Positions 3,231 through 39,188 of a stretch of DNA of 64,000 nucleotides are shown here, one piece after another. Made by a program: the position numbers and the translations under genes. The stretch is taken from positions 1-64,000 of the forward strand of contig NZ_JASISP010000002.1 of the NCBI RefSeq assembly GCF_030063185.1, written 5' to 3'. The DNA comes from Arthrobacter sp. H35-D1. GTDB taxonomy: Bacteria; Actinomycetota; Actinomycetes; Actinomycetales; Micrococcaceae. Position 1 is the first letter of the stretch. The number at the start of each line of letters is the position of its first letter. The notes below the pieces were generated by a model. That model worked only from the letters and a program-made list of their open reading frames with translations. It did no database searches and was not told the DNA's origin.

Positions 3231-3640
3231 GCTTGCCCCCCAGGGTGATTCGTTCTGCTGATTCAGGCCACAGCCAGCGACCCCACGTCGCGGACCACAC
3301 TGGCGGTCGATGAGAGACCCGGCCTTCCGCTACGGACCATGTCGGTAGTCGGCTTGGCCAGTCTATGAAGCATGCAGGCACAGGACACGAGTGCTCACTA
3401 CTCGCTTTTCGAGGGACGCCGGCAACCGTCGTTTCAGGAACACGCGCATCCACCTGTGCAGCTACCTGTCCACACTTGTTTCACCACCCGAGAAACGTTT
3501 GCTGCTGCGTCCGCCGCCCGTGTCGGCGTCGACCATGCCTATACAATGCAAGGTAAGTCTCCTGGCCCGTGGTTGGAACGGGAACTTCCACAACGACTAC
3601 CGGGCCGGGGTGAAACACAGCTGAGACCTGAGGGGATGCT
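3231..3640. other. 410-bp divergent intergenic region
   Basis: No gene is supported here; the short open frames have no recognisable product. It separates the deacetylase (minus) from the hydrolase (plus), so it should carry two promoters. It contains the CGAGT-N7-ACTCG dyad at 3388-3404. A TATACA hexamer at 3540-3545, about 95 bases before the hydrolase start, is a possible -10 element, but no convincing -35 goes with it. Confidence 0.5.
3388..3404. promoter_or_regulatory. Candidate LuxR operator dyad CGAGT-N7-ACTCG
   Basis: CGAGTGCTCACTACTCG is a perfect 5-bp inverted repeat with a 7-bp spacer, followed by CTTTTCG. It matches the dyad at 14292-14308 in both arms and spacing, and less exactly those at 8459 and 39172. 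It lies about 160 bases from the deacetylase start and 240 from the hydrolase start. Assignment to the LuxR proteins in this window is inference. Confidence 0.45.
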
Positions 3641-4738
3641 TTGACTGATGGCAAGCACAGCTTCAGGCTGCCGGACCCGCGGAACAGGCTCCCTTTCCGC
3701 CTGGTTTCCGGCCTCATGTTGGTGGTTGTGCTGACGGTCCTTGGAATCTCCGCGTTCCGAACCACACTGCCCCAGGCCGAGCCTTGGTTTGCAGGCTATG
3801 TGGATGTCACGGTGTCGCCGGCGTACCCGTTCGAGACCCCCGCGTCCGACGCCGCCAAGAACGTCATTCTGTCCTTCATAGTGGCCGGGGCGGCCAACCC
3901 TTGTGAACCGCGTTGGGGACCCCACCACACACTGGATGAAGCAGGTACATTGCTGGGCCTTGATGCCAAACTGGCCACCCTGCGCGAGAACGGAGGGCAA
4001 GCAGCCATCTCCTTCGGCGGGGCCGCGAACACGGAACTGGCCACGTCCTGCACCGACCTTCCCTCCTTGGAGGATGCGTACCAGGGCGTTGTGGACCGCT
4101 ATGGAGCATCAACACTGGACTTTGACATTGAAGGCGCGAACTTGGGGCATCCCGGGGCGGGCGCTCGCCGGGCCAAGGCCATCGCGGCCGTGCAGGAACA
4201 CCAGCGGAGCCACGGCAAGCAGCTGGAGGTTTGGCTCACCCTTCCCGTCTCACCGCGCGGCCTAACGGACGACGGCGTTGCCGAAGTCGAAGCCATGCTC
4301 CAGGCCGGCATCGAGCTGGCGGGCGTAAACATCATGACCATGAACTACGGCGAAAGCCGGAGTTCCGGGCAGGGCATGCTCGAGGCCTCCGAGACTGCGG
4401 CGGCCACCGTCCATTCGCAGCTGGGCATCATCTATCAAAGGGCAGGGCAGGAGTTGGACAGCCAGGCACTCTGGGCCAAGCTTGGCTTGACGCCGATGAT
4501 TGGGCTCAATGAAATTTCCACCGATGTCTTTGACCTTGAAACTGCCAGGCAATTCGCAGAATTTGCTTCGGAAAACAAGGTGGCCCGCCTGTCCATGTGG
4601 TCCCACAACCGGGACAAGCGCTGCCAGCCCGGCAGCCCGGACCCCACAGTGGCGTCCCATATTTGCAGCGGAACGGCCCAGACCCCAGGAGCTTTTGCCC
4701 AAGTACTGGGCGCGCCGTTTGCCGGCACGTTCAGGTAA
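3641..4738 (+). CDS. Membrane-anchored GH18-like glycosidase
   Basis: A 365-residue protein with a single N-terminal membrane helix (about 20-40) and an extracellular TIM-barrel domain. DFDIE at 160-164 fits the DxxDxDxE catalytic motif of GH18 chitinases and endo-beta-N-acetylglucosaminidases (D160, D162, catalytic E164), and AISFGGAAN near 122-130 fits the SxGG motif. It probably cleaves beta-linked GlcNAc polymers outside the cell, perhaps trimming the product of the neighbouring synthase and deacetylase, much as PgaB carries both activities in Gram-negative bacteria. The TTG start follows GAGGGG by six bases. It converges with the next gene, leaving five bases between stops. Confidence 0.83.
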   Translation: MTDGKHSFRLPDPRNRLPFRLVSGLMLVVVLTVLGISAFRTTLPQAEPWFAGYVDVTVSPAYPFETPASDAAKNVILSFIVAGAANPCEPRWGPHHTLDEAGTLLGLDAKLATLRENGGQAAISFGGAANTELATSCTDLPSLEDAYQGVVDRYGASTLDFDIEGANLGHPGAGARRAKAIAAVQEHQRSHGKQLEVWLTLPVSPRGLTDDGVAEVEAMLQAGIELAGVNIMTMNYGESRSSGQGMLEASETAAATVHSQLGIIYQRAGQELDSQALWAKLGLTPMIGLNEISTDVFDLETARQFAEFASENKVARLSMWSHNRDKRCQPGSPDPTVASHICSGTAQTPGAFAQVLGAPFAGTFR

Positions 4739-4743
4739 CTGCC

Positions 4744-5526
4744 TCAGTGGTTGACCTGGCTGGTGGTGACGATGGTCCGCCACGGCCCGTCCGGGACCTC
4801 CGACTCATCCACAAATTGCCAGTCCACACGGTCATTTTGCCCGTTGAGATCGCTGAATCCCAGGCAGCCGTTGATGGCGGGTGAGACGTCCATGCCCGCC
4901 CCGTTGAACTTCTTGTTTGCCGGCCGGGCGTCATCGGAGCCGAAAACGTAGGCCGAGTCGTGGTACTGGCCGGGGCCCGCGTCCTGGATCTGCCCGTAAC
5001 AAACACGATCCTTGATCGCTATGCGTACCCAGCGGTTCTTCATGTAGCTGAAATTGCCGTTCGTCGCCTGGCCTGCATAGCCCGGATCGTTCGCCCACGG
5101 TATGACCTTGGCGCGCTCGGCGAACGCCGCAGGGTCGTTGATGTCGTCATAAGGCAAGTCAAGGTAAAACGGGTTTTCCATAGGCGTCATGGAACTTGGC
5201 ATGTAGCCGTTCGCCGCAGTTCTGGGCTCGGTCTGGCACGCGGGCGTGAGAACTCCGTCGCAACCCCCGTAACGGGCCTGCCAATCGTCGTCGTAGGTTG
5301 AATACACTTGACTGCCGTCGGCGGCCGACGGATCAAAGACCTCACCAACCCAAAAAGTGGTGGCCACAATGTCCGTGTGCCACGGGTACTTGCCGCCCTC
5401 CCGGGCAGGGCCCCTGCCCGAACAGCCCGAGGTCACCACGAGCACCAACACCAGCACCGCAGCGTGCCACGGCATGGCCCGCCACCGGCGGGGTGCGGGC
5501 CCGGCCCTGTCCATACGCTCATTCAC
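4744..5526 (-). CDS. Secreted lipoprotein with double-psi beta-barrel-like C-terminus
   Basis: About 260 residues with a lipoprotein signal: basic N-terminus, hydrophobic stretch AAVLVLVLVV and lipobox TSGC. The mature part contains GQIQDAGPG...YVFG...GAGMDVSPAI, which resembles the core of RlpA/expansin-type double-psi barrels, where an Asp near DVSPA is important; this is a fold guess, and enzymatic activity is unknown. It has several Cys (YGGCDGV, TPACQ, RVCYG, NGCLG) that could pair outside the cell. A GTG at 5526 (preceded by CGGGAC) is chosen; ATG at 5514 or a GTG at 5604 are possible. A decayed paralogue lies at 1-417. Confidence 0.75.
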   Translation of the reverse strand: MNERMDRAGPAPRRWRAMPWHAAVLVLVLVVTSGCSGRGPAREGGKYPWHTDIVATTFWVGEVFDPSAADGSQVYSTYDDDWQARYGGCDGVLTPACQTEPRTAANGYMPSSMTPMENPFYLDLPYDDINDPAAFAERAKVIPWANDPGYAGQATNGNFSYMKNRWVRIAIKDRVCYGQIQDAGPGQYHDSAYVFGSDDARPANKKFNGAGMDVSPAINGCLGFSDLNGQNDRVDWQFVDESEVPDGPWRTIVTTSQVNH

Positions 5527-5629
5527 AAAGTCCCGTTTCTGGTTAATCCCGAACAACGGGGCGCGCTTGCCGCCCCGGGAAAAATCCCGTGGCACCAAAC
5601 ACACCCCGTTGCTGATTGACGCAATCCTG

Positions 5630-6637
5630 CTAGTTTACTGAGGCGCCAACCATTATGCCGGCGCCCTGCTCCTGCGCCGCTCGGCGTTGGTCATCAGCCA
5701 CGTTGATGATGATCTCATCAAGGGTTGTTTGAGGATCAAAGCCGACAAATGCATGCGCCTTGCCATTGTTGGGCACACGCCGGCGCATGTCCTCATATCC
5801 TTCCGCGTAGGCCTCCTCGTAGGGAACGAAGATGATCTCGCTCGTGCTGTCCAGCAGTTCAATGATCCGCTGGGCCAGCGACAAGATGGAAATCTCGTAG
5901 CTGCCGCCCAAGTTGAAGACGTCGCCATACGCTTGGGGTTTTTCCGCAATTTTGGTCATCGCCGGCACCACATCGGCGACATAGGAAAAGCAACGCGTCT
6001 GCAGGCCGTCCCCGAACACTGTCAAGGGCTCACCAGCCAGGGCCTGCTTGATCAGCCGCGGCACCACCATGCCGTAGCGGCCTGTCTGGCGGGGACCAAC
6101 GGTGTTGAAGAGCCTGACGATCGCCACGCGCAAACCAAATTCTTTCCAGTACGAGTGAGCAAAGGCTTCGTCTATTCCCTTGGCTGCGGCGTAGGTCCAC
6201 CTGGATTTCAATGCCGACCCGAGGATGCGGTCTGCTTCTTCATCCAGGCTGTCCGAGGTGTTTTTGCCGTAAACCTCGCTGGTGGACGCCAGGAGCAGGC
6301 TCGCCCCCGCATCAAGAACCGCGTCCAGCACTACCTCCGTGCCGTGAATGTTGGTGCGCAGGCTCTCCAACGGGTTCTCCACGATCAGGTTCACGCCAAC
6401 GGCGGCAGCCAGGTGGAACACCCTGTCGGTTCCCTTGACCAGCTGGTCCACGGCCGCACGGTCCAGGATGTTCCCCTCGATGAACCTAAAACGAGGATGG
6501 TCCATCACACGGTCCAGGTTCTCGATCCGCCCCGTGGACAGATTGTCCAAGACTGTCACTTCATCACCTTGGGCGAGCAAGTGCTCCACCAGGTGCCCGC
6601 CAATGAAACCGGCACCGCCGGTAATAGCTGACTTCAT
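5630..6637 (-). CDS. NAD-dependent nucleotide-sugar epimerase/dehydratase (extended SDR)
   Basis: A 335-residue cytoplasmic extended short-chain dehydrogenase. The Rossmann motif GGAGFIG is at 7-13, and the catalytic set is STSEVYG near 118-124 plus YAAAK at 149-153. The sequence around LGSALKSRWTYAAAKGIDE resembles the UDP-glucuronate decarboxylase/ArnA and UDP-GlcNAc epimerase branches, so it makes or remodels a UDP-sugar, but the exact reaction cannot be read from the sequence. ATG at 6637 is chosen because AGGA stands seven bases before it; an upstream in-frame ATG at 6664 lacks one. It lies 53 bases downstream of the UDP-sugar dehydrogenase, very likely co-transcribed. Confidence 0.88.
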   Translation of the reverse strand: MKSAITGGAGFIGGHLVEHLLAQGDEVTVLDNLSTGRIENLDRVMDHPRFRFIEGNILDRAAVDQLVKGTDRVFHLAAAVGVNLIVENPLESLRTNIHGTEVVLDAVLDAGASLLLASTSEVYGKNTSDSLDEEADRILGSALKSRWTYAAAKGIDEAFAHSYWKEFGLRVAIVRLFNTVGPRQTGRYGMVVPRLIKQALAGEPLTVFGDGLQTRCFSYVADVVPAMTKIAEKPQAYGDVFNLGGSYEISILSLAQRIIELLDSTSEIIFVPYEEAYAEGYEDMRRRVPNNGKAHAFVGFDPQTTLDEIIINVADDQRRAAQEQGAGIMVGASVN

Positions 6638-8088: not shown

Positions 8089-8619
8089 TGCTCTCTGAAC
8101 TCCCCTAAAGTTTGTGAATTGTTTCGATTAATGCAGCCGGCCGGTCATCTGTCATGTCCCAGCGAGGTACTTCGCGACATTGGACATGCATGCAAGCCAG
8201 GCTGGCGGCCGCACCCGCTGATTTTCAGCAAAGGGCGCCCTGAACTGCCTTGGTCTTTCAAAGGTTTGCTTCGGTGGCAAATAACGGGAAGCGGCGGTTC
8301 CTTGATTCCGGTCGCCCCGAGATTGCAGTGGTGGCTGGCGCGGTCATCCCTCTACGGAGACGCTGTCCTTCCACACTCTTTCCAAGACCGTTCCATCCCC
8401 ATGCGATTCATTGCTAAGACCAATAAATTCAGCCTAGGAAATGAATCCCTTCCGGGCACGAGTGCGGCTTACCCGTCTTTGAATTGCAGCTCTCCGGTTT
8501 TTCCCAGGCATACGCGACCTCCGCCTTCGCAGCACTCGTTTTCTACTTGGGCCGGTGAATTGTAGTGGCTTGAAGCAAGTCATTTCGTTGAATTTCTTGG
8601 TCCACCCTGCTGCACGAGA
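8089..8619. other. Intergenic region upstream of the UDP-sugar dehydrogenase
   Basis: No gene is supported across about 530 bases; the plus-strand open frame here has no recognisable product. AGGGGAG eleven bases before the ATG at 8088 may be its ribosome site. The stretch holds the imperfect dyad at 8459-8475, and a near-palindrome GCGAGGTACTTCGC around 8163-8176 that could be another protein site. Confidence 0.5.
8459..8475. promoter_or_regulatory. Candidate LuxR operator dyad, one mismatch
   Basis: CGAGTGCGGCTTACCCG keeps the CGAGT arm and 7-bp spacer of the dyads at 3388 and 14292, with one change in the right arm (ACCCG for ACTCG). It lies about 370 bases upstream of the UDP-sugar dehydrogenase start. 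Alone it would be unremarkable; the recurrence is what supports it. Confidence 0.35.
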
Positions 8620-8703: not shown

Positions 8704-11373
8704 TCAAAACTGCCACGAATCCAGTCCCGTATTTGCTATTTCTGTTCTGTCGGATATTCCAAGCTTGGCAAATATGCGGTAAAGGTGGCCTTCGACCGTC
8801 CGCAGCGAAAGGCCAAAGGCCGCGGCGATATCCCTGTTGCTGGCGCCTCCATGGACCAATGCCGCCACTTTCCGTTCGCGCCGGGTCAACTGCGGCCCAC
8901 TGCCCAACCGTTCCGACAGAGGAATGTGCCCGTGGACCAACCCGGCCAGGCGGCGTTTGGCCAGCCGCTGGGCGTTGTGGAGGCGGTTTCGGTCCCCCCG
9001 TCGACTCAGGAGGGTCACCGCGTTGGCCGCGCTCCAGGCGGCCTCCAGTTCCCGACCCTGGCCCTGTGCCTCATCGCTGAAAGCCAAAAGTGCCGTGGCG
9101 TCCCTGTCTGAGATTGCCATGGCGTAGGCAGCTGCATATTTCGCGGCCTGGCCTTCGCACCGCAGCGCAACTGCTTTCAGGCGCAGGGCCAAACCCAGGT
9201 CGCCGGCATGAATACCCAGCCTCAACACCTCCATTTCCACATGGAGCATGCCCAGGGCTGCAGCTTCATCTGCGACCCGGCGCAGACTCGGGCGCGGATT
9301 TCCCTCGAACATGCCTCGCGCTGCAAGCAGGTAGGCACGGGATCGCAGGCGCGTCGCAACGTCACGCCCCGGGGCGGCAGCCTCATACAACGTCGCGTAC
9401 TTCTCCGCGACCGATTCCCTCCCCAGCACCGACGCAGTGTAGGCCGTGGCAGCCAGCCCCAAGGGCAAATCGTTTCCCGGATCTGAGACCTGCAACGCAG
9501 CGACCGCCTGCATGAGTTTGTGCAGGCCGTCATTCATGGCTCCTTGGCCAATATCGCCAAGTCCTTTTGCCAAGTGAATGGTTCCACCGTAAACAAGCAG
9601 CGACAGCGAGTGGCGCTCCGCCTCTTGGTTGACGAAGCGGCACAGTTCATCGAATTGTCCTGCATGCCACAGGGCCGAAAGGTGGCGGCGGGTCACAAAT
9701 TCGTGCAACTGGGCCAATCGCCCGTCGCCCTGTGCCAACAGCTGTGTGGCGAGGGCTGATGATTTGAGTGCCTCAACCGCCCGTCCGGTTGCCGTCCTCG
9801 CCTCGCACAGAAGCGTTGCCGAGACAACGCCGTTCACAGTTCCGGCAACTGCGGAGTTCTGGAGCTCCACCAGCTCCTGTTCCGTGCCTTGGTAGTTTCC
9901 CTGCGTGTGCATTCCCTGGATTTCAAGCAGGCGAAGACCCGTGTGATGTTCTGCGCGCTCGGAGTCTCCATGGAAGGCTCCGCTGCGCTCAAGCCTGTGC
10001 ACGGCCTCCCGCCAGGAGACAACCAGCTCGGCGATGGCAGCGGTTTCCAGCCCGGGGCGCAATCCCACATGCCCGCAGACCCCGGCAGCCAGTTGGACAG
10101 TCTCAGGATCCGAGGACTGCTCCAGTATCTCGGTGATCATAAGGGAGAAACGCCTGCGATCGCCGCGCCACAGCATGGCTTTGGCCGTCTCCAGCCGGGC
10201 ACCGCCGCTCAGCCCCGGCGACGTCACCGCGGCAGCCGCCCGTTCGGCCACATCGGACAAGAAATGCTCGTTGCCCTGTTGGGCCGCCAGCAAGGCAACA
10301 CTGTCAGGGATCTGAAGCCCCGCTTCCAGCGCCCAGCCCACGTGGCGGACAAGGCTCTCTCCACGTTCGCGGTTTAGATCCACCTTCGCAAGCAGGCGAC
10401 GCCGCAAGAACAGGCTTCTGGCCGTCGGGAGGAGTTGGGCAGCAACCGCGCCCATGCGCGGGCTGGAGAAGCAGACGCGACGCGAGGGTACCTTGGAAAT
10501 GACAATGAGCCGGGCTTCCTCCAAGTCATCGACGGCGGCCCTGTCCGCCACTTGGTAGAGCGTTTCCAAATCAAGGCTTCCCGCCAACGCAACATGCTCC
10601 AAGGCGTCTCGTGACGTTCCGGCAAGCTGCTGCAGCTGCGTCCCGACCGAGTCCCTCATCCGAGAAGTTGAGCCACTCGGGATCCGGGCAAGAAGCCAGA
10701 CGCCGTCGACTTCAACCAGGTCACCACTGTTGCGTGCGTGGCTGATGAGTTCCAGCAAGTACAACGGGTTCCCGTCCGCGAGGCGACATAACATGGCGTT
10801 CGTCCCGGGAAACACCTGTTGCCCCAGGACGCGCAAGCAAAGTTCGTGCATGGTTTCCGGGGACAGCGGCGTCATTTCAAGGAACTTGAGCAGTCCGTCG
10901 GAACACATCGCCCACAGTTCGGCGGGGGCAGCCGGAAAGGGCGAGCAAAGGAAGATGAACTTTGTTCCACTGGCCACCGCCAATTGGGCCAAAAGGGCGG
11001 CGCTGTGTTCGTCAAGGAACTGGGCGTCTTCAATCACGAGCACGGCGCATTCATTGGCCTCGGTCCGGAGTGCAGCAGCCAGGGTTTTCAGGACCGCCTT
11101 TGGCGAGTCCCCGTGCTCCATCGGCAGCCCTGCAAGAAAGGGTGCCAGCGCTCCATACGGTTCGCCCGAGAGCACCGGGGAGGCAAAAGCATGAAAACCC
11201 CGCAGTCTCCCCTGGCCAAGCTCCAGCACAGCCGCAGCCACGGTGGTCTTGCCCATTCCGGGATCGGCCATGATCAAAGAGCCGTGCCAGTCCGGGCCCC
11301 GAAGTGAATTCATCACTTCGTCGATGATGTCGCGCCGGCCAAGGAGCGCTTCCGGCAATTCGCTGTTTCTCAT
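8704..11373 (-). CDS. Giant LuxR-family regulator with AAA/NTPase domain (LAL-like), second of pair 1
   Basis: An 889-residue regulator of the large ATP-binding LuxR type. An N-terminal P-loop (DPGMGKTT near 36-43) and a Walker B-like VLVIEDAQFLDE near 112 form the ATPase; a long helical middle is probably a TPR-like sensor; the C-terminus is a LuxR helix-turn-helix (LTRRERKVAALVHGG...NRDIAAAFGLSLRTVEGHLYRIFAKLGI). The signal sensed is unknown; maltotriose-type activators such as MalT have this architecture. The ATG overlaps the stop of the upstream regulator as ATGA, so the two are made together. It probably controls the EPS genes around it. A hairpin terminator follows. Confidence 0.9.
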   Translation of the reverse strand: MRNSELPEALLGRRDIIDEVMNSLRGPDWHGSLIMADPGMGKTTVAAAVLELGQGRLRGFHAFASPVLSGEPYGALAPFLAGLPMEHGDSPKAVLKTLAAALRTEANECAVLVIEDAQFLDEHSAALLAQLAVASGTKFIFLCSPFPAAPAELWAMCSDGLLKFLEMTPLSPETMHELCLRVLGQQVFPGTNAMLCRLADGNPLYLLELISHARNSGDLVEVDGVWLLARIPSGSTSRMRDSVGTQLQQLAGTSRDALEHVALAGSLDLETLYQVADRAAVDDLEEARLIVISKVPSRRVCFSSPRMGAVAAQLLPTARSLFLRRRLLAKVDLNRERGESLVRHVGWALEAGLQIPDSVALLAAQQGNEHFLSDVAERAAAAVTSPGLSGGARLETAKAMLWRGDRRRFSLMITEILEQSSDPETVQLAAGVCGHVGLRPGLETAAIAELVVSWREAVHRLERSGAFHGDSERAEHHTGLRLLEIQGMHTQGNYQGTEQELVELQNSAVAGTVNGVVSATLLCEARTATGRAVEALKSSALATQLLAQGDGRLAQLHEFVTRRHLSALWHAGQFDELCRFVNQEAERHSLSLLVYGGTIHLAKGLGDIGQGAMNDGLHKLMQAVAALQVSDPGNDLPLGLAATAYTASVLGRESVAEKYATLYEAAAPGRDVATRLRSRAYLLAARGMFEGNPRPSLRRVADEAAALGMLHVEMEVLRLGIHAGDLGLALRLKAVALRCEGQAAKYAAAYAMAISDRDATALLAFSDEAQGQGRELEAAWSAANAVTLLSRRGDRNRLHNAQRLAKRRLAGLVHGHIPLSERLGSGPQLTRRERKVAALVHGGASNRDIAAAFGLSLRTVEGHLYRIFAKLGISDRTEIANTGLDSWQF

Positions 11374-14078
11374 GACCTGTCCCCCACAACCTGCTCAAGA
11401 ACGACTGCCAGGTCAGAACGGTCGGAAATGCGCAACTTCCCAAAAATCTGGTACAAATGTCCTTCGACAGTTCGGATGGACACGTGGAGACTGATGGCGA
11501 TTTCCTTGTTGCTCGCACCGCTCGCCGCCAATTTGGCGATTTCCAATTGTCGAGCCGTGAGCGGCTGTTTGTCACCTGCCCGCAGGCTGCTGATATCCAT
11601 GTTCCGCCGACTCGTTTCCAAACGGGCGGCCAGACTGCGGCGTTGATACAGATCCAAGGTCCCCAGCGCCAGGCCCATTTCAGCCGCGTCGACGACGGCT
11701 GCATCGTTGCCCGCATCCGCGGCGAGCTCCGCAGCAAGGGCGAGAAGTCCGGCGTCGCCCTTCAGGGTACCCTCGGCCAGTGCACGGTAAAACGAACACG
11801 GGCCATCAACGAATTGCTCGGTCGCAGCCAACAACTTCCCGGCCACGCCGACCGCACCGAGCCTCAAGGCAAGACCCAACGACACCATTTCCCAATGGTT
11901 CCGCCCGGAGTCCCTGTCGGCCTCGGACAGGGACAGCAATTGGGTGACGCTGCCGTCGCGGTCCCCTGACATTCCCCTGGCCGCCAGTTCAAAGTGGCGC
12001 CCCATCCGCTCCACAAGCCACGGTGCGGCAGCGCCGCAGCCGCCCAATTCCGCAAGGTACCTGCGGCACGAATCGACGTCGCCGGACAGCGCAGACGCGT
12101 AGGCCGCCGCAGAGAGAGCCAGCGCCAGAGCCCCGCACTGGTCTTTCAGGCGCAACTGCGCAAGCTCTGGCCTCAGGAGAGACAGGCAATGCTCGCCGTG
12201 CCCCCTGGCAGCGGCGAGTATTGGCAGGGCCAGATCAGCGAAGACCGTGCCATGGACCGCGACTTCCTGGGCCATGCTCCGGCCATGGAACCCACGGGCC
12301 GATTCTTCTGCAGCGTCAAGCCTTCCCGCTATCAAGTAGGTGAAGAACAGAAGCTCCCGAACCTGTTCCGTTCCTGCCGGCGCGGCATCGACTTGGTCCA
12401 GTGCCGCCGTCAGCCCGTCGGCGAGCTCGAGAGCCTTGTCGATGTGGCCTGCTGCAGCCGTGGCCAGGCTCAGCTGGCCGCCAAGCATCAGGGCGTTGGA
12501 TCCCGCATGCTGTGTTTCGGCCAACATACAGTGGTTGAGCTCGTCAAGAACGGAAGAATAATTGCCCGACCACCAGGCCGCCCCCACCCCGGCGAGTGCC
12601 AATTGGCTGCGGAGCGGGCCAATGCCCGCTCCTGTTGGAACGATCCCGCGATCCTGGGGGTCGGGGTAGAGTTCCGTGCGGACTTTATCCAAGTTCGCAT
12701 CCGCTTCCTGCCAGGTCTCCCTCGAGGTCACAAGCATGCTGGTCTCCGCCAGCTGGAGCTCCACCCAGCTATCGAGGGTGGGTTCCTCGTGTGTGGAGCA
12801 GTAGAAGGACCTGAGCACATCATGAACAGCGGAAACTTCGCCCAGGATCATGTGAGAGCGGACTTGTTCGACTGTCACGGATGTCAATTTAACCCCAGGA
12901 TCCTGCGACGCCAGCAGCCACAATGCCTGCCGCGGCCGCATCCTGTTGTTCTCCGTTCGGGCGGCGGCCGCCAGCGCCACGCCGTCGCCCGCCGGCTGGC
13001 CGCACTCCAGCGACCAGACCGCCATGCCCACGGCAGCTGGGCTGGATTCCTGCGCCCTGGGCAAGTGCAAGTTGACCGCCTCCCACAAGTCACGGCTACG
13101 TCCTGCCGGAACCCTGCTGCGGACAACACGGGCCAGCAGCGGACTGCCGGTCCGGACTATGTGCCCGGTATCGATCCTGAGGAGGCCCTTTTGCTCCAAG
13201 GCATCAATTTCATCGCCCTCCACCAGGGCCAGCAGGGTATTGATGGGAATTCCCCCTGCCAAGGCAACGATTTCCAGGGTTCGGGCCTCCGCAGAACTGA
13301 GCCTGCCCAATTGCTTCGCGAACAACCTTGCAGGGATTCGTTCGTCTTCTTCAACCGACTCATCCAGACACCAGACGCCGTCACCACTCACAAGGGCCCC
13401 TGACTTTTGCATGTCTTCCGCGAGCACGCCCAGATAAAATGGATCCCCCCCACTGGCATTCCACAACCTCCGCCCGGCAAGTCGGGACAGGCTTCCGCCC
13501 AAGCGTGCTTCAAGTGCATTGATTGCCTCAAGAAAAGACAACGGCTCCACCGCCAGCTGCCTGGCGCTACCATCCTTCACAAGGTCGGAAAGTTCCCGGG
13601 GCAGGAAGCGGGAGGCCGCGCATGTCAAGAGCAGGCGGACGGCGCCTACCCTGGCCAGTTGGGCAAGGATGACGGCAGAGCGTCCGTCCAAATCGTTGGC
13701 GTTGTCGACATAAAGGCAGACGGCCTTCCCTTCGGCCATGCATTCCAAACGCCGTCGAGTTGCCGCCAACACCTGGACCGGGTTGTTGGCGTTCCCCCGG
13801 CCCTCCTCCCACAGAAAAACAGCCAAGGCCCCATAGGGTTCTTTCGACGTGTGTGCGCTGGTGTGGAGTCGGATCACGTGCAAGTCGGGTTGCAGACGCT
13901 TGACAGCTCCAGCAGCCAAGTGGCTCTTGCCAATCCCAGACTCCCCCGTCAGCACGACGCTCTTCCCCGCGCCCTCCGTTCCATCGCCTTCACCTTGAGG
14001 CTTCAGCGCCTCAACAATCTCCGCGACAACAGATTCCCGACCACTGACAATCCACTGCATCGACACAGAATTCCGCAC
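11370..14078 (-). CDS. Giant LuxR-family regulator with AAA/NTPase domain, first of pair 1
   Basis: A 902-residue paralogue of the gene it overlaps. An intact P-loop (GESGIGKSH) opens the ATPase region, a Walker B-like LYVDNANDLDG follows, then a long helical segment and a LuxR helix-turn-helix (LTARQLEIAKLAASGASNKEIAISLHVSIRTVEGHLYQIFGKLRISDRSDL). GTG at 14078 is chosen because GGGGAG stands five bases ahead; the frame is open further up to 14219 but with an unlikely, Cys-rich sequence. ATG at 14060 is a second choice. Recognition-helix residues RTVEGHLY are the same in all four regulators of the window, suggesting overlapping DNA sites. A candidate dyad lies about 215 bases upstream. Confidence 0.88.
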   Translation of the reverse strand: MRNSVSMQWIVSGRESVVAEIVEALKPQGEGDGTEGAGKSVVLTGESGIGKSHLAAGAVKRLQPDLHVIRLHTSAHTSKEPYGALAVFLWEEGRGNANNPVQVLAATRRRLECMAEGKAVCLYVDNANDLDGRSAVILAQLARVGAVRLLLTCAASRFLPRELSDLVKDGSARQLAVEPLSFLEAINALEARLGGSLSRLAGRRLWNASGGDPFYLGVLAEDMQKSGALVSGDGVWCLDESVEEDERIPARLFAKQLGRLSSAEARTLEIVALAGGIPINTLLALVEGDEIDALEQKGLLRIDTGHIVRTGSPLLARVVRSRVPAGRSRDLWEAVNLHLPRAQESSPAAVGMAVWSLECGQPAGDGVALAAAARTENNRMRPRQALWLLASQDPGVKLTSVTVEQVRSHMILGEVSAVHDVLRSFYCSTHEEPTLDSWVELQLAETSMLVTSRETWQEADANLDKVRTELYPDPQDRGIVPTGAGIGPLRSQLALAGVGAAWWSGNYSSVLDELNHCMLAETQHAGSNALMLGGQLSLATAAAGHIDKALELADGLTAALDQVDAAPAGTEQVRELLFFTYLIAGRLDAAEESARGFHGRSMAQEVAVHGTVFADLALPILAAARGHGEHCLSLLRPELAQLRLKDQCGALALALSAAAYASALSGDVDSCRRYLAELGGCGAAAPWLVERMGRHFELAARGMSGDRDGSVTQLLSLSEADRDSGRNHWEMVSLGLALRLGAVGVAGKLLAATEQFVDGPCSFYRALAEGTLKGDAGLLALAAELAADAGNDAAVVDAAEMGLALGTLDLYQRRSLAARLETSRRNMDISSLRAGDKQPLTARQLEIAKLAASGASNKEIAISLHVSIRTVEGHLYQIFGKLRISDRSDLAVVLEQVVGDRS

Positions 14079-14786
14079 GAACGCTCCCCATTGGTATTTA
14101 GACACCAAATACTGCTTGCAAGTCACAGCGGTGCCGCCGCACCATGGGTGGCTGCGGCGGCACCAGTCAACATTGCCAGCACATCTGAAAGTCATTGAGA
14201 CACAAAAAAATTCAAACACTTCCGGCAGGCCCGGCCCCAGTGGTCGGTTTCTGCCAATGCCTCACGGTATCCAGCGGTATTTTCGTTTACACGAGTGCTG
14301 GCCACTCGTATTTGGCACCGGGGCTACTCGACTACGCCTGCGAGTACTCATTTTGGACGTGCGCCAAGCAGGCAAGGTGACTGTGGCAGGGTGGCCGCTC
14401 GAGGCTCAATGGCAACAACACTCGGTTCCGGTTGCCGTGGCACCTGCTGTCATGAGGGAGCACACTTCCATGGCACAGCCGGGAAACACAAGCAGACATG
14501 GTTGGGCCAGGAAGTTCCATGCTCCGAGTAGCAAAGCAAGTAGCAATCGGGATACTCGGCGGGACGGAACCGGCCTTTTCGCATTCCAGATGAAACAGTC
14601 GAGTGGTCAACACCCGTGTTTGTGCCGTCGGAAAACGATTTACTAGAGCTACGTACACCGGCAATTGCTGCGCTGGAGAGCTGAAATCGGCTCGCTGGCA
14701 CATGCTGGCGTCGTTCCCCGATGGGGCCCCACACCAGAGCTCAGGTCAACAACTTGGACTTCATGGCGACCCGACCCATCAAAACT
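14079..14786. other. Long non-coding region upstream of LuxR pair 1
   Basis: About 700 bases without a supported gene; the open frames on either strand lack recognisable products and ribosome sites. It holds the dyad at 14292-14308, an inverted TACTCG-N10-CGAGTA at 14325-14346, and AGTACTCATTTTG at 14343-14355, which recurs almost unchanged at 39205-39218. Such clustering suggests a regulatory region for the regulators themselves. Confidence 0.5.
14292..14308. promoter_or_regulatory. Candidate LuxR operator dyad CGAGT-N7-ACTCG
   Basis: CGAGTGCTGGCCACTCG is a perfect inverted repeat with a 7-bp spacer, sharing GCT at the spacer start with the site at 3388. Further half-sites (ACTCG at 14326, CGAGT at 14341) follow within 40 bases. 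It stands upstream of the first LuxR gene, so it could mediate autoregulation. Confidence 0.45.
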
Positions 14787-14818
14787 GCACGGTGATGCCA
14801 CTGTTGTCATCACCGTGC
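14787..14818 (-). terminator. Rho-independent terminator downstream of rmlA
   Basis: GCACGGTGATG and its exact complement form an 11-bp stem with a 10-base loop; on the minus strand the stem is followed by AGTTTTG. It lies about 70 bases after the rmlA stop, with the 60-nt palindromic element between. Confidence 0.7.
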
Positions 14819-14826
14819 CCCCGATC

Positions 14827-14886
14827 GGAGCCGGCGGCGGATAGGCCTCTTGAGACCCAGGCCTTCCCCCAGCCGTCGTCGGCTCC
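14827..14886. repeat. 60-nt palindromic element, copy 1
   Basis: Read on the minus strand this is 53/60 identical to 38891-38950 on the plus strand. It folds into a long outer GC stem (GGAGCCG.../...CGGCTCC), an internal loop with CTGGGGGA on one side, and an inner stem AGGCCT/AGGCCT. The inner-stem pair A-T of copy 2 is G-C here, a compensatory change. It begins four bases beyond the rmlA stop. It may be a mobile palindromic repeat or a structured RNA; I do not recognise a known family. Confidence 0.6.
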
Positions 14887-14889
14887 CCT

Positions 14890-15750
14890 TTAGTCCAAAA
14901 GCTCAAGCAGGTAGCTGCCGTAGCCGCTCTTGACGAGCTTTTCAGCCCGCTGCCGCAAATCGTTGTCACTGAGGAAGCCCATGCGCCAGGCAACTTCCTC
15001 CGGTGCGCCAATTTTCAAGCCCTGGCGGTTTTCCACCGTTCGGACAAAGGTGGAGGCATCGTTGAGGTCGCTGAAAGTTCCCGTGTCCAACCAGGCCGTG
15101 CCGCGCGGAAGCAGTTCAACATGCAACTCACCACGGTCAAGGTAGGCGCTGTTGACATCGGTGATCTCCAATTCTCCACGGGCGGAAGGCTTGAGGTTCC
15201 TGGCAATGTCGATGACGTCGTTGTCATAAAAATACAGCCCAGGGACAGCGTAATTGCTGCGCGGTTTCTTCGGCTTTTCCTCCAGCGAGACAACTTTCCC
15301 TTCAGCATCAAATTCCACTACACCGTAGGCGCTGGGGTCCTTGACCCAATACCCAAAAATGGAGCCGCCGGTGAGGTACTCGTGCTTTTGCAATTGGGTG
15401 CCCATACCGTGGCCGTAAAAGATGTTGTCGCCCAGCACCAAGGCCACTGTTTCGTGGCCAATATGGTCCGCGCCGAGCACAAAGGCCTGCGCCAGACCGT
15501 CCGGGGAGGGCTGCTGGACATAGCTGAGATTCACCCCGAACTGGGAGCCGTCGCCCAGCAGGCGCTGGAAGGCTCCTGCTTCGTGGGGCGTGGTGATGAT
15601 CAAGATGTCCCTGATGCCGGCCAGAATCAGTGTGGACAAGGGGTAATAGATCATCGGCTTGTCATAGACAGGGACAAGTTGCTTGCTGATGCCCAAAGTG
15701 ATCGGATGCAGGCGGCTGCCCGTCCCTCCGGCGAGAATGATGCCACGCAT
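14890..15750 (-). CDS. rmlA: Glucose-1-phosphate thymidylyltransferase
   Basis: A 286-residue cytoplasmic enzyme making dTDP-glucose from dTTP and glucose 1-phosphate, the first step of dTDP-L-rhamnose synthesis. The N-terminal nucleotide site [16 protein letters not shown], the [17 protein letters not shown] block (21-38 region) and [10 protein letters not shown] are all intact, and the length is normal. TAGGACGG precedes the ATG. It is divergent from rmlB with only 50 bases between starts, so the two promoters must overlap. The 60-nt palindrome and a terminator follow the stop. Confidence 0.97.
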
Positions 15751-36081: not shown

Positions 36082-37187
36082 CTTGTTCCCTCCAGTTGAA
36101 CCTCAAAATCAGCAACGGGACTGTGTTCACCGTCTGCTGCCAAACTCCTGCTTGCTGCTTCCAACACCGAGAGCACCCGCAGTCCGGATACGCCGTCGGT
36201 CCGTGAAGGCCGGTTCCCCAGAATGCTGTCGGAAAATTCCTGGACCATCATGCCCAGCGCTTCCTTTTCCGGCAGGGCCGGAGACCAGGTGTCGCCGAGC
36301 CGGTACGACACTGCCTGCTCCTTGCGCTGGGCGGCCGTGGTGGATGCCTTCTCAAAGTTCACGCCCCTGTCATAGACGCTGATGCGCTGTTGCGGATTGA
36401 GATCGTCCCAAACCAGGGTGCGTCTTGAACCGCCCACCACCAGCTGCCGAATCTTGGTGGGGCTGAGCCAGTTCACATTGATGTGTGCCATGGCATTGTT
36501 GGGCAGTGCAAAAGTCAGGTGCCCCACGCAGGACTTGCCTGTGCCCAGCGGATCAGCGCCCTGTGCTGCGACCGTTTCGGGCCGGAGTCCGCCCGGCAGA
36601 ATGAAGTCGATGACGGAAAGATCGTGGGGGGCCAAGTCCCAGAAGACGTCCACATCGGGTTGGATCAGTCCCAGGTTGATCCGGACCGAATCAATGAACA
36701 GAATCTCCCCCAGCGCGCCCTCGGCAATGAGTTCCCTGATTTTCAGGGCTGCCGGGGTGTAGCAGTAGGTGTGGTCCGCCATGAGCGTCAGCCCGTTGGC
36801 TTCGGCAAATTCCACCATTTCCACACCTTGTTCCCGGGTGGCGGCCAACGGCTTCTCCACCACCACGTGTTTTCCGGCGCGCATGGCGGCCATGGCAACG
36901 CCGTGGTGGGTGCGTGCCGGTGTGGCGATGGCAACGGCGTCCACATCGCACCGTTGGAGCAAGTCGTCAAGGGAGGAAAACACGGGAACATCGCCCAGCG
37001 GGCCGGCGATCTTCAGCGCCCGTTCCGTGTCCATGTCCACAATGGCGCACAGCTCCCAGGCCGGACTGGCTTTAAAGTTCCGTGCCAAGTTCGGCCCCCA
37101 GTAGCCGGCGCCAATCACGGCAACTTTCAGGACGGTTTGTTCCTGCAACAGGTTCAGCTGTTGCATCGTGTGGGGAATCGAGACCAT
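36078..37187 (-). CDS. Gfo/Idh/MocA oxidoreductase (WbpB/WlbA-like)
   Basis: A 369-residue NAD(P)-dependent oxidoreductase. VAVIGAGYWGPNLARNF is the Rossmann motif and HVVVEKPLAAT the conserved catalytic Lys block (EKP). In O-antigen pathways WbpB/WlbA oxidises C3 of UDP-GlcNAcA to a 3-keto sugar for transamination, which fits the aminotransferase and acetyltransferase downstream and the UDP-HexNAc dehydrogenase at 6691. ATG at 37187 is taken; Met8 (37166) is an alternative. The last bases overlap the next ATG (ATGA). Confidence 0.88.
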   Translation of the reverse strand: MVSIPHTMQQLNLLQEQTVLKVAVIGAGYWGPNLARNFKASPAWELCAIVDMDTERALKIAGPLGDVPVFSSLDDLLQRCDVDAVAIATPARTHHGVAMAAMRAGKHVVVEKPLAATREQGVEMVEFAEANGLTLMADHTYCYTPAALKIRELIAEGALGEILFIDSVRINLGLIQPDVDVFWDLAPHDLSVIDFILPGGLRPETVAAQGADPLGTGKSCVGHLTFALPNNAMAHINVNWLSPTKIRQLVVGGSRRTLVWDDLNPQQRISVYDRGVNFEKASTTAAQRKEQAVSYRLGDTWSPALPEKEALGMMVQEFSDSILGNRPSRTDGVSGLRVLSVLEAASRSLAADGEHSPVADFEVQLEGTR

Positions 37188-37243
37188 TGCATTAATTCCA
37201 TTTCGTGTTCAGTTGTTCCCCCTGCATGCGTGAGCATGCGGGG

Positions 37244-38827
37244 CTAGTAGGCGCCCACAGGCGCAGTGACTGCTTTGAAGGTGCGCCACAGGATGACAAT
37301 GTCCCCCGTAAGCGACCAGTTCTCCACGTAGTACAAGTCCAGCCGAACCGCCTCGTCCCATGCGAGGTCGGACCGTCCGCTGACTTGCCACAAACCGGTG
37401 ATGCCGGGCTTGATGAGCAGCCGGCGGTGGGCGGTCCTTCCATAGCGAGCCACCTCGTCCGCCAGCGGCGGTCGGGGTCCCACCAGGCTCATCCGGCCTG
37501 TCAGCACATTCCAGAACTGCGGCAGCTCGTCCAAGGAAAATTTGCGCAGCCACCGCCCGCTGCGGGTAACCCGGGGGTCGTTGGCCATTTTGAAGAGCAC
37601 GCCGGCTCCCTCGTTTTGCTCGCCCAAACCGGACAGCCTGGCTTCTGCATCAACCACCATGGAACGGAACTTCACCATTTTGAACTTTCCGCCGTTGCGT
37701 CCCACCCGTTCCTGGAAGAACAAAGCCGGCCCCGGCGAGTCGAACTTGACGATCATGGCCAACAGCAGCAGCATGGGCGCCAGCACAAGCAACGCCGCGG
37801 ACGAGAGCACCATGTCCATGACGCGTTTGACCACATGCTTTCCACCCGAGTACTGCGGCAGCTCAACATGCATCAACGGCAGGCCTTCCATGGGCCTGAA
37901 GTGAACTCGAGGACCTGCAACGTTTGTCAGGCTGGAGGCGAGGACAAGCTCCGTTGACATGTCTTCCAACCGCCAGCCAAGTTCCTGAATTGCTTCAGGC
38001 CCGCCTGGCAGGGCCCCTGCCACCACCACGGCCTCGGCACAGGTCTTGTTGACCACATCTGCAATGTCGGCCAGCGAGGAAAGAACAGGGATTTCGTACC
38101 ACGGCGGCAACAATTCCATCTTGGGCTCAAGGGTGGTCAGGGCGGCCCCGGCAACCCGGTAGCCGGATGCCAAGTGGTTGCCCAGGTGCCCAATCACGTA
38201 CGCCACATCTTGCGGAGTGCCCAGGACAACAACATTTGAGAGTGCTTTTCCTGCCTCGCGTTGGCTGTTCAGCCACCGGCGCCACATCCACCGCTGCCCG
38301 AGCAGCAAGATCACGCCCGTCGGCAGCGCCACGGCAAAAAAGCCGCGGGAAACCCCAATCTGGAATACGAGCAGGACCATGGCCATGATGCCGAAGGTAC
38401 GGAGCGTTGCCTGCACCACCCGCTGGTATTCGGTGACGCCGGATCCGAAGATGCGCTTCTCCCTCGAGCGGCACCACTCCAGGTCCACATTCCACAGGAC
38501 CACGATGGCCAAACAAATCCACACGTAGCCGAGCTCGGAAACAACGGTGGCGCCTTGGCTCTCCGTGGCAACAAACCGCCACAGGTACGCCACACCAACC
38601 ACGACCGCCGAGACCAGCACATCGCAGAGCCGCAACCTGTTGGCATAGCGTGAAGACCAGCTGACCGTGCTGCCTTGGCCGGCTGTTGCAGCACTTGCAG
38701 CGCGGGCGTCCCACACGCTGTGCTTGGGGCCGATCCCCTTGTGGTTGTCATCCTGGTTGCCATTGACGTCTTCGATGTGCCTGAACGGGGGCGTGTGAAG
38801 TTGCGGATGAATCCTCAGCTCAGTCAC
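37244..38827 (-). CDS. Polyprenyl-phosphate sugar-1-phosphate transferase (EPS-initiating enzyme)
   Basis: A 527-residue WbaP/CpsE-type protein. About four to five N-terminal helices (from about 68), a central soluble CoA-binding-like domain, one helix near 345-365, then the catalytic domain: RVGRNGGKFKMVKFRSMVVDAE, LRKFSLDELPQFWNVLTGRMSLVGPRP and ITGLWQVSGRS. It moves hexose-1-phosphate from a UDP-sugar to undecaprenyl phosphate, starting repeat-unit synthesis. It is the only initiating transferase in the window and the first gene of the long minus-strand operon. The GTG start has an untranslated leader that includes the 60-nt palindrome. Confidence 0.93.
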   Translation of the reverse strand: MTELRIHPQLHTPPFRHIEDVNGNQDDNHKGIGPKHSVWDARAASAATAGQGSTVSWSSRYANRLRLCDVLVSAVVVGVAYLWRFVATESQGATVVSELGYVWICLAIVVLWNVDLEWCRSREKRIFGSGVTEYQRVVQATLRTFGIMAMVLLVFQIGVSRGFFAVALPTGVILLLGQRWMWRRWLNSQREAGKALSNVVVLGTPQDVAYVIGHLGNHLASGYRVAGAALTTLEPKMELLPPWYEIPVLSSLADIADVVNKTCAEAVVVAGALPGGPEAIQELGWRLEDMSTELVLASSLTNVAGPRVHFRPMEGLPLMHVELPQYSGGKHVVKRVMDMVLSSAALLVLAPMLLLLAMIVKFDSPGPALFFQERVGRNGGKFKMVKFRSMVVDAEARLSGLGEQNEGAGVLFKMANDPRVTRSGRWLRKFSLDELPQFWNVLTGRMSLVGPRPPLADEVARYGRTAHRRLLIKPGITGLWQVSGRSDLAWDEAVRLDLYYVENWSLTGDIVILWRTFKAVTAPVGAY

Positions 38828-38890
38828 AGTGTGTGCCCCTTCCGGGCGTCTTGCCGTTCTTTCTCACTGGATCTTGCACCGCAAGGGAAA

Positions 38891-38950
38891 GGAGCCGACG
38901 GCGGCTGGGGGAAAGCCTTGGTCTCGAAAGGCTTATCCGCCGCCGACTCC
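38891..38950. repeat. 60-nt palindromic element, copy 2, in the leader of the initiating transferase
   Basis: Same length and fold as 14827-14886 with seven differences. The outer stem pairs GGAGCCG with CGACTCC ends, the inner stem AAGCCTT with AAGGCTT. Read on the minus strand, the direction of the transferase gene, the stem ends 63 bases before the GTG and is followed by TTTCCCTT, so it could act as an attenuator-like hairpin. No known riboswitch consensus is recognised. Confidence 0.6.
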
Positions 38951-39171
38951 GAATGTGGAGTCCAACTTTTTATGGAGGACAGTGTGCCCGGTCGCTGGGA
39001 CCGAACTTGCGGTGCGGGGGTGGTTGTACCGCTGTTCCACGAGACAAAGAACTCGCCGGTGACAGGGCTGATTGCCGCTGAAGAAGTGAAAACCATCGTG
39101 AGACCTTCCGTGCTGAGACCATCGAGACCTTTGGAACAGTTCCAGTCAACGACAGGCGCAACACCAATACA

Positions 39172-39188
39172 CGAGTAATCCCTACTTG
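39172..39188. promoter_or_regulatory. Candidate LuxR operator dyad, one mismatch
   Basis: CGAGTAATCCCTACTTG keeps the CGAGT arm and 7-bp spacer; the right arm has one change (ACTTG). Sixteen bases on, AGTACTCAGTTTTG repeats the sequence found after the dyad at 14292. It lies about 345 bases upstream of the initiating transferase and just beyond the 3' end of LuxR pair 2. Confidence 0.4.

Follow-up and report, generated by a model that had tools for sequence, protein, structure and literature searches.

A putative operator accompanying tandem LuxR/LAL regulator genes, and an associated hairpin RNA, in the exopolysaccharide region of Arthrobacter sp. H35-D1

Regulator genes and dyad sites

The window, i.e. 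the whole 64,000-nt stretch analysed (NZ_JASISP010000002.1, positions 1 to 64,000), carries four LuxR-type regulator genes in tandem overlapping pairs on the minus strand: LAL_A1 (11370–14219; AAA and GerE) with LAL_A2 (8704–11373), and the conserved pair LAL_B1 (42093–44807) and LAL_B2 (39358–42108). LALs were defined as proteins of about 900 aa with an N-terminal AAA/STAND-like ATPase and a C-terminal GerE helix-turn-helix (HTH) domain. All four proteins match AAA_16/AAA_22 and GerE at E≤0.001, with AAA_16 under Pfam's own cut-off in three of them. None has an autoinducer-binding domain at E≤0.001, which places them outside the LuxR autoinducer receptor class, and no SARP domain was listed for them. 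Solved structures matched LAL_B2 only in the C-terminal HTH of other LuxR-type proteins, and a search of genome contigs for loci related to LAL_A1 gave no match. The sequence RTVEGHLY, from which an earlier note on this DNA had proposed one site family for all four proteins, is indeed present in each, but is weak evidence of shared specificity, since RT[VI]EGHLY also occurs in a LAL outside the exopolysaccharide (EPS) region. It was found in 6 of 24 readable LuxR-type HTHs of the genome (30 of 37 loci were fetched, 6 of which were misread), all in large LALs.

The perfect CGAGT-N7-ACTCG dyads reported earlier at 3388–3404 and 14292–14308, and those with one mismatch at 8459–8475 and 39172–39188, are all present and lie, as claimed, in non-coding gaps with minus-strand genes downstream; a fifth, also with one mismatch, had been overlooked at 14600–14616. 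Four of these putative operators, all training sites, are read on the minus strand. Operator 1 (3388–3404; CGAGTAGTGAGCACTCG; 45.5 bits), with a -10-like TAGACT at 3365–3360, faces polysaccharide deacetylase/GT genes from 3230 downwards. Operator 2 (8459–8475; CGGGTAAGCCGCACTCG; 35.6 bits; TAGGCT at 8436–8431) precedes a UDP-glucose dehydrogenase gene (8088), and operator 3 (14292–14308; CGAGTGGCCAGCACTCG; 37.1 bits; TACCGT at 14269–14264) precedes LAL_A1 (14219), with two GAGTA half-sites upstream at 14349–14345 and 14329–14325; for both, genomes G001 and G010 also have a site 5' of the orthologous gene. Operator 5 (39172–39188; CAAGTAGGGATTACTCG; 41.3 bits; TTGACT at 39149–39144) has half-sites TACCC (39227–39223) and GAGTA (39211–39207) upstream and is followed by a leader ORF and then a WbaP-type priming sugar transferase gene (PF02397; 37244–38827, minus strand). 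Operator 4 (14600–14616; CGAGTGGTCAACACCCG), on the plus strand with TTTACT at 14639–14644, is directed at a stand-alone hairpin RNA. It was rejected as an auxiliary minus-strand operator of LAL_A1, as the plus-strand promoter site scores higher (26.0 vs 14.5 bits). Its counterpart, L019:645+, has a weaker -10, TGTAAT.

The half-site at 44910–44914, to which control of the second pair had been ascribed, did not hold up: although the five letters exist, their in-register score is -14.5 bits, whereas the five sites, four of them used in training, reach 21–33 bits (operator block, with 14600 scored on the plus strand). It was therefore rejected as the operator of LAL_B1. Autoregulation of LAL_B1 is likewise not supported, with no site before the 17 genes examined of 22 (best -4.7 bits; the other 5 had no upstream sequence). 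The eight plus-strand genes of the window have no upstream site either (best 3.6 bits).

Within the window, dyads with at most one mismatch are modestly more frequent than in shuffled sequence (5 vs 1.42 expected from 100 dinucleotide shuffles, one of which reached five), but genome-wide there is no enrichment: the perfect dyad occurs at 3 places in 4.46 Mb, two of them in the window, and the backwards-read pattern at 16. When up to 3 mismatches are allowed, the extended pattern occurs at 6 places in the genome, of which 4 are in the window and in one orientation. Since its backwards control gives 8 places (4 per strand), the clustering in the window, not the genome total, is the distinctive feature. 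A 59-bp model comprising site and -10 (R1) found at E≤1 only four places in the genome, all of them training sites in the window (3388, 8459, 14292 and 39172; E≤2.4e-6). On leaving out each of the five window sites in turn, four ranked first after the four training sites and 14600 ranked eighth; the latter fell short of both thresholds, E≤1 for R1 and E≤0.01 for model R2. R2 at this threshold also missed the third-pair site, which was in its training set; of the near-identical genomes G018 and G019, one was left out of R2.

Promoter geometry and distribution of the putative operator

The recurring unit is CRAGTA-N5-TACTCG(TG), followed after 22 bp by a -10-like TWNNNT. TWNNNT stood at offset 22 in all 20 held-out sites of at least 20 bits in the operator block (19 if G018 and G019 are counted once), although this test of spacing was not fully blind, because many loci were fetched via matches to R1, which includes the -10. 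Overall, 40 of 42 sites have offset 22 and the other 2 have offset 23; 8 of the 42 score below 20 bits and were added by eye with the -10 in view, all 8 at offset 22. Among 40 sites, six columns of the right arm (A23, C24, C26, G27, T28 and G29) and three of the left arm (C11, G14 and T15) are invariant or nearly so. Upstream of 38 sites, [GA]AGTA half-sites recur in steps of about 10.5 bp, 65 being found against 7.5 expected from mononucleotide shuffles, with the sequences related to each other; orthologous sites and leaders, like the half-sites, do not count as independent evidence.

Sites of this kind were found at the orthologous loci as well, an outcome in favour of the earlier note. LAL_B2 has a homologue in 22 of 23 genus genomes, and in 21 of these 22 a site-like sequence lies at its 3' end or within 750 bp past it; in G009 the only candidate site is 1.2 kb away. 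Those of G003, G008, G012 and G013 are weak (13.8–17.5 bits, similar to scores at unrelated places) and were accepted because of their -10 and position; R1 gave no match by the LAL in G008 and G012. The sole genus genome without LAL_B2, G020, has no R1 match at E≤1, and G004, G005, G008, G018 and G019 each carry a single LAL_B2-type match together with a single R2 site. Outside the genus, a site and/or hairpin follows at least 30 of 41 LAL_B2 homologues directly, with none at the mirror position among the matches listed. For R2 sites by themselves, at least 12 of these 41 LALs have one downstream; for 11, the matches listed include no site and no hairpin. These linkage counts apply strict filters to the matches listed, i.e. 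120 R2 rows, 3 of them from the own genus, and 130 rows of model R3. Full reading of 14 of these family loci showed a putative operator of at least 20 bits beyond the LAL in 10; individual scores were 27.4 bits for L111, 14.9 for L106, 9.0 for L112 and 8.3 for L114, and L107 had no site. Ten loci were also fetched from genomes under the LAL threshold, and at 9 of these 10 the site comes after LAL genes; G205 is the exception. In the genus as in the wider family, the putative operator accompanies tandem pairs of LuxR/LAL genes. The earlier proposal of a LuxR-controlled EPS operator appears largely right and is partly supported, its operator-like element, LAL pairs and EPS genes standing and its control of pair 2 through 44910 falling away.

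The site most often precedes a priming sugar transferase gene. Of 45 downstream ORFs, chosen by length, 30 were covered by the Pfam scan. It placed 8 of them among the sugar transferases, along with 1 fragment, and identified 2 UDP-glucose dehydrogenases, 2 LALs, 1 deacetylase and 12 proteins of other families, 4 having no match. The 15 genes after LAL-pair sites comprised 8 sugar transferases and 1 such fragment, 2 UDP-glucose dehydrogenases, 1 LAL and 3 others; a P-type ATPase follows one such site. Far sites precede genes without an obvious EPS role, encoding MR_MLE enolase-like (2), SulP, BTAD/SARP, LysM (2), Hpt, APP1 and coiled-coil proteins.

The hairpin RNA and the leader ORF

With their starts placed from the -10 elements, the predicted transcripts from 39172 and 14600 would both carry a 60-nt hairpin RNA. 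The copy in the WbaP leader (38883–38960, minus strand; helix 38950–38891) has a z of -3.96 and scores 96.1 bits; the stand-alone copy (14817–14894, plus strand; helix 14827–14886; 87.4 bits) is convergent with rmlA and has a counterpart in G001 (L019:865–942). The hairpin was found in 128 of 245 sampled family genomes and is nearly confined to that family. Outside the genus, 23 of 41 hairpins have a site of at least 20 bits within 480 nt upstream; conversely, a hairpin lies within 500 nt downstream of at least 31 of 120 R2 matches, with 2 at the mirror position among the matches listed.

Compensatory changes exceed those of shuffled and slid controls, as in a structured RNA, with double changes at 9 of 21 pairs in 29 sequences (set A3) and at 15 of 21 in other genera (47 rows fitted to the model, 6 of which are antisense matches). 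The A3 hairpins, from which the near-copy L150 was left out, were gathered by the pattern AGAC[CA], CCCC, G.CG.CG.CGG, and the constancy of these letters is partly by construction because the pattern demands them. Rfam gave no match at the gathering score in the window or in 20 family loci, the epsC motif included, and for the WbaP leader there was none at E≤5; at the 14817 copy only two miRNA matches (E about 9) appeared. A riboswitch reading was dropped, as no known family was matched. An alternative 5' arm, CUCC/GGAG, was set aside as weak (91% paired). Searches of open-access PMC papers gave no description of the operator site or of the hairpin RNA.

The WbaP leader contains an ORF of 90 codons (38824–39096, minus strand) which spans the hairpin and shares 4 nt (GTGA) with the start of the WbaP gene. 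Three nucleotides 5' of its start codon is GGUCUC (39100–39105), the exact complement of the hairpin loop GAGACC, with two more copies farther upstream. In EPS leaders of the own genus, an ORF starting at GGUCUC-AUG traverses the hairpin and mostly ends at the start codon of the next gene. All 20 leaders that have a GGTCTC start keep a frame open through the hairpin, the same one in most, with L084 using a different one. Taking the longest ORF from any GGTCTC start (in L080 not the one nearest to GGTCTC), the overlap with the next start is 4 nt in 13 of the 20 and 8 nt in 2; another 3 adjoin it (L080 among them), and the remaining 2 had no identifiable next ORF. A general rule of pairing between loop and ribosome-binding site was not supported outside the genus, where GGUCUC and a start codon are upstream of 9 of 41 hairpins, and GGUCUC may be a mere ribosome-binding feature. 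Loop and target are both nearly invariant, and covariation is silent on their pairing. In a few more hairpins of other genera, GGTCTC is found at the start of the downstream gene.

Proposed regulation and relation to known systems

We consider it likely that the dyads are promoter-proximal operators of activator-dependent promoters through which the LAL pairs switch on EPS genes, with the hairpin RNA as a second layer. The tandem MalT-like LALs, most likely the conserved pair B and possibly as a heteromer, would bind CRAGTA-N5-TACTCG centred near -43, assisted by the phased upstream AGTA half-sites, and recruit RNA polymerase to a promoter with a -10 (TWNNNT) and without a good -35, turning on EPS operons, other LAL genes and the stand-alone hairpin RNA. 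LAL binding, activation, the transcription start and the choice of the LAL that reads the site we infer from the sequence. In this second layer, the GAGACC loop might pair with GGUCUC, the sequence at the leader ORF's ribosome-binding site, and thereby tune translation of this ORF, and the start-stop overlap would pass this on to the sugar transferase; drawn mainly from the own genus, this step is proposed tentatively. More speculative still is a family-specific two-layer switch, in which LAL pairs would work as heteromeric MalT-type activators of EPS operons and of a dedicated RNA switched on along with them, combined with pairing between the GAGACC octaloop and GGUCUC at ribosome-binding sites of the regulon, in cis (WbaP leader) and in trans (stand-alone copy), coupling leader translation, hairpin folding and transferase translation.

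The repeated dyads are real and hardly due to chance. The modest window count, equalled in 1 of 100 shuffles, and genome totals not above the backwards controls (3 vs 16; 6 vs 8) would fit fortuitous dyads or low-complexity inverted repeats of GC-rich DNA between genes, but the clustering in the window, the extended conservation, the fixed -10 spacing, the conservation at orthologous loci and the matches in genomes outside the training set leave this a negligible probability. A promoter read by an alternative sigma factor, in which ACTCGTG would be the -35 and TWNNNT the -10, with no activator site, would accord with the fixed distance and the somewhat better conserved right arm (6 vs 3 columns), yet seems very unlikely in view of the two-armed 6-N5-6 symmetry with a 22-bp gap, the phased half-sites, the linkage to LAL pairs and the nearly identical geometry published for MalT. 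It is also unlikely, though less so, that another regulator encoded elsewhere reads the operator and the LAL pairs are mere neighbours or targets in EPS islands: some sites are far from LAL genes, but the recurrence of the site immediately beyond the LAL pair and on its strand, with none in the mirror position among the matches listed, the five genus genomes in which a single LAL_B2-type match goes with a single R2 site, and the absence of both LAL_B2 and an R1 match from G020 argue for the LALs.

Two other readings of the hairpin were weighed against a regulatory RNA. The open frame in all 20 GGTCTC-start leaders, mostly the same, might indicate that the 60-nt block is conserved for what it encodes, a segment (PHSEPAADKPSETKAFPQPSSAP) of a small EPS protein; this is highly improbable given the compensatory changes in both helices, insertions that are not multiples of three, the different frame of L084 and the stand-alone copy at 14817 with its convergent neighbour. 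It is possible, if doubtful, that the hairpin acts as an intrinsic terminator or attenuator and that its 14-bp helix halts transcription unless the leader ORF is translated. The GC-rich helix, a short T-rich tail in several copies, a terminator-like call at 38906–38893, the passage of the leader ORF through the hairpin and the weak alternative 5' arm point to it, whereas tails are T-poor in many copies, no terminator was called at the 14817 copy, and the loop and the CCCCCAG side are conserved beyond what a terminator needs.

For the activator-dependent promoters preferred here, the geometry looks like that of a class II activator and matches the published MalT operator of Actinoplanes sp. SE50/110, also an actinobacterium with a MalT-like LuxR-family regulator, where a hexamer-N5-hexamer palindrome covers the -35 and its 3' end is 34.4 ± 1.0 nt from the transcription start (PMC7567727). 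The sites described here show the same layout, with a 6-N5-6 palindrome over the -35, a predicted start about 34 nt away as estimated from the -10, and arrays of further upstream boxes ([GA]AGTA); two LuxR (MalT-like) genes in the region are a further likeness (PMC7567727). The letters differ, CGAGTA/TACTCG here against TCATCC/GGATGA there (PMC7567727), so that by operator hexamer, our sites being CRAGTA/TACTCG, the LALs are not MalT orthologues. The mostly exopolysaccharide targets, the tandem overlapping LAL pairs and the structured RNA downstream are further differences. The MalT boxes of E. coli and Klebsiella serve the maltose regulon. They overlap the -35, with the 5' end at -34.5 to -35.5, and are repeated, much as the AGTA half-sites here are phased, but read GGGGA(T/G)GAGG (PMC7567727). 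LuxR/LAL-type control of actinobacterial gene clusters is also described for the SARP-LAL and PAS-LuxR regulators of Streptomyces (PMC3367932, PMC5930380); in PimR, the SARP domain binds CGGCAAG direct repeats (PMC3367932), whereas no such domain is listed for the window LALs. As these sources present it, operators are given for only a few LuxR/LAL proteins (PMC7567727, PMC3367932). LALs are recurrent in the family studied here, and the analysis provides a candidate operator, its promoter geometry and candidate targets for tandem LALs as a class found throughout this family; control of EPS in its members thereby becomes open to direct testing.

The epsC motif is also named EAR. Like this motif and JUMPstart, which are found in leaders of exopolysaccharide genes and are linked to transcription elongation (PMC2864571), the hairpin is a structured RNA leading exopolysaccharide genes, but one without an Rfam match, near-confined to one bacterial family and present in over half of its sampled genomes; its arrangement with the leader ORF yields a clear mechanistic prediction. 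In Vibrio, the MalT-regulated sRNA Vsr217, derived from the malK 5' UTR, acts in cis and in trans (PMC8265627). It resembles our case in being an RNA in the leader of a MalT-controlled transcript (here presumably controlled by MalT-like proteins), whereas RNA and organism are unrelated and leader and stand-alone forms both exist here.

Dyad sites and their proposed promoter layout

The two perfect CGAGT-N7-ACTCG dyads (3388 and 14292) and the two with one mismatch (8459 and 39172, all minus strand) that the earlier note had proposed as operators are present, and a fifth, overlooked there, lies at 14600-14616 on the plus strand. These five represent a moderate excess over dinucleotide-shuffled sequence (1.42 expected; five reached in 1 of 100 shuffles). 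Of the 3 perfect dyads in the entire 4.46-Mb genome, 2 lie inside the window. The sites have common flanks, approximately AAARA-CRRGT-N7-ACTCG-TG in the minus-strand reading, and the extended pattern has 6 genome occurrences at up to 3 mismatches (4 inside the window, these 4 in a single orientation). Since these totals are not above those of the backwards controls (16 and 8, respectively), the signal is one of clustering, not of abundance.

Exactly 22 bp past ACTCG, a hexamer TAGACT, TAGGCT, TACCGT or TTGACT is found in 4 of the 5 window sites. The form TWNNNT stood at offset 22 in 40 of 42 sites and at offset 23 in the remaining 2, every other offset from 14 to 31 having it in 0 to 5 sites, and held-out sites scoring at least 20 bits for the operator block had it at offset 22 in 20/20, in a test not fully blind because many loci were fetched via matches to R1, a sequence model that includes the -10. 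With this spacing the dyad would be centred at about -43 and would end some 34 nt upstream of the inferred start. The published MalT motif of Actinoplanes is a hexamer-N5-hexamer palindrome over the -35, its end 34.4 +/- 1.0 nt from the transcription start (PMC7567727); its layout is identical to that of our site but its letters are different. From this shared layout, we read the site and -10 unit as a predicted MalT-type class II activator promoter. Two regions were also scanned for sigma-70-type promoters, and none was called. In the 120 bp upstream of 38 sites, [GA]AGTA half-sites numbered 65 versus 7.5 expected (mononucleotide shuffle), clustering at about -14, -23, -42, -52, -63 and -74. 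Operator geometry and regulator class are already known in kind; searches of open-access papers turned up no description of the operator letters, EPS target set, tandem LAL arrangement or RNA.

Conservation and the putative regulator

Relatives of LAL_A1, a large LuxR/MalT-like regulator of tandem pair A, were found at E<=1e-60 in 8 of the 23 genus genomes (own one included), and in their neighbourhoods the dyad unit precedes orthologous UDP-glucose dehydrogenase, deacetylase, WbaP (priming sugar transferase) and LAL genes, so the site does recur at orthologous loci. R1 (14 sites, 59 columns), searched over the 23 genomes, gave 4 matches at E<=1 in the own genome, all within the window, and matches adjoining orthologues of LAL_B2, of tandem pair B, in non-training genomes (e.g. 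G005, G007, G011, G015, G018, G019, G021 and G022). LAL_B2 is present at E<=1e-30 in 22/23 genomes. G020, which lacks it, gave no R1 match at E<=1, nor did G008, where LAL_B2 is present. With an operator-only matrix, 21 of the 22 genomes showed site-like sequence either at the LAL_B2 3' end or no more than 750 bp beyond it, the sequences in G003, G008, G012 and G013 being weak (13.8-17.5 bits); the sole candidate of G009 is 1.2 kb from LAL_B2.

Among 245 family genomes, R2, a model from 40 sites, matched 90 at E<=0.01 and LAL_B2 matched 55 at E<=1e-90. Among the matches listed, a site and/or the hairpin RNA described below lies just downstream, on the same strand, of 30/41 non-genus LAL_B2 homologues, and at the mirror position of 0/41. 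An operator scoring 20 bits or more follows the LAL in 10 of 14 fully read non-genus LAL_B2 loci; sites 3' of LAL genes were also seen at 9/10 loci fetched from genomes below the LAL threshold.

Pair B (LAL_B1 and LAL_B2) occurs in nearly all genus genomes, and LAL_A1 at >40% identity in only 3 (G000, the own genome, G001 and G010). Sites are found even where pair A is missing, which makes pair B, or its family equivalents, the leading candidate for the putative reader of the site. The half-site at 44910, placed by the earlier note beside the predicted promoter of LuxR pair 2 (pair B), fails when scored, and window LAL_B1 has no site upstream. The earlier note took the shared RTVEGHLY to mean that one site family could serve all four window LuxR proteins. 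Among 24 readable HTHs (30 of 37 LuxR-type loci of the own genome fetched), RT[VI]EGHLY was present in 6, all LALs, one of them outside the EPS region; the motif marks LALs rather than proving one specificity.

A third tandem LAL pair lies outside the window at 70874-76522 of contig C22 of G000; downstream are a weak site (C22:70586, 12.8 bits, TTGACT at offset 22), the hairpin RNA (C22:70223-70300, minus strand) and a second WbaP-type sugar transferase. Pair B is the direct neighbour of pair A in G001 (loci L018/L019) and G010 (L020/L021), in the order B1-B2-site-A1-A2-site-UGDH; they are apart in the window genome.

Candidate target genes

Genes next to the window sites encode deacetylase and GT proteins, UDP-glucose dehydrogenase, LAL_A1 and WbaP. 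Pfam was run on 30 of the 45 downstream ORFs outside the window. The 15 after LAL-pair sites comprise 8 sugar transferases, 1 such fragment, 2 UDP-glucose dehydrogenases, 1 LAL, a P-type ATPase, a cytidylyltransferase-like ORF and one without match. The 15 at far sites comprise a deacetylase, a LAL, two MR_MLE enolase-like genes, a SulP transporter (734 nt away), a BTAD/SARP regulator, two LysM, an Hpt, an APP1-like and two coiled-coil proteins, and three without match. Both coiled-coil proteins are long and begin shortly downstream of the site (L070:7947-10352 in G014; L071:9075-11456 in G009). EPS genes are among the candidate targets, as the earlier note proposed, but the set is not purely EPS, and since eight plus-strand window genes have no site upstream it is a sub-regulon.

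Two plus-strand window ORFs are likely fusions: 16833-18254 matches dTDP-sugar isomerase (RmlC-type) and RmlD-type reductase, and 19686-22424 matches WecG/TagA/CpsF and GT2 glycosyltransferase. A 1606-aa ORF (59075-63895, minus strand) lies near the window end.

The hairpin RNA and GGTCTC leaders

A 60-nt element occurs at two places in the window, between operator 39172 and WbaP (within 38883-38960, minus strand) and downstream of 14600 (within 14817-14894, plus strand). It combines a 14-bp outer helix, a 7-bp inner hairpin whose octaloop contains GAGACC, and a CCCCCAG side; the fold of the WbaP-leader copy has a z of -3.96. In 29 sequences, gathered by a pattern that holds some loop and 3'-arm letters constant, 98.7% of cells were paired, with double changes in 9/21 pairs (0/500 shuffles). 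The other-genera set (47 rows, 6 antisense), found with and fitted to the model, gave 92.7% paired and double changes in 15/21 pairs (1/500 shuffles). With the covariance model, the window has 2 strong copies and the own genome 3, and 128/245 family genomes have matches; in the phylum scan the model matched 3/396 genomes, 2 being family members and 1 weak (31 bits). No Rfam 15 family matches the RNA. In other genera, 23/41 hairpins have a site scoring 20 bits or more in the 480 nt upstream.

Of 58 site-driven leaders, 37 carry GGTCTC no more than about 100 nt from the -10, versus 1.55 expected (mononucleotide shuffle). It frequently precedes a start codon by 0 to 8 nt, and for several LAL targets this is the start codon of the target gene itself. 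In WbaP leaders (window gene at 37244-38827, minus strand) GGTCTC opens a 75-123-codon ORF spanning the hairpin, in 20/20 leaders with a GGTCTC start (22 examined), and 13 of these 20 ORFs end in a 4-nt ATGA/GTGA overlap with the next gene. The hairpin loop and GGUCUC are exactly complementary, and the loop might pair with GGUCUC at the ribosome-binding site. Such pairing is a proposal, not a finding, because in other genera the loop is retained in 35/41 hairpins but the upstream GGTCTC-start in only 9/41; the hairpin could equally well act by attenuation.

At L028:4862-5006, two tandem copies of the RNA lie upstream of a second site (5041). At loci L265, L266 and L267, the RNA is almost immediately 3' of a -10-like hexamer, and at L266 no ORF of at least 110 codons starts for about 470 nt; these three are candidate small RNAs under their own LAL-type promoter.
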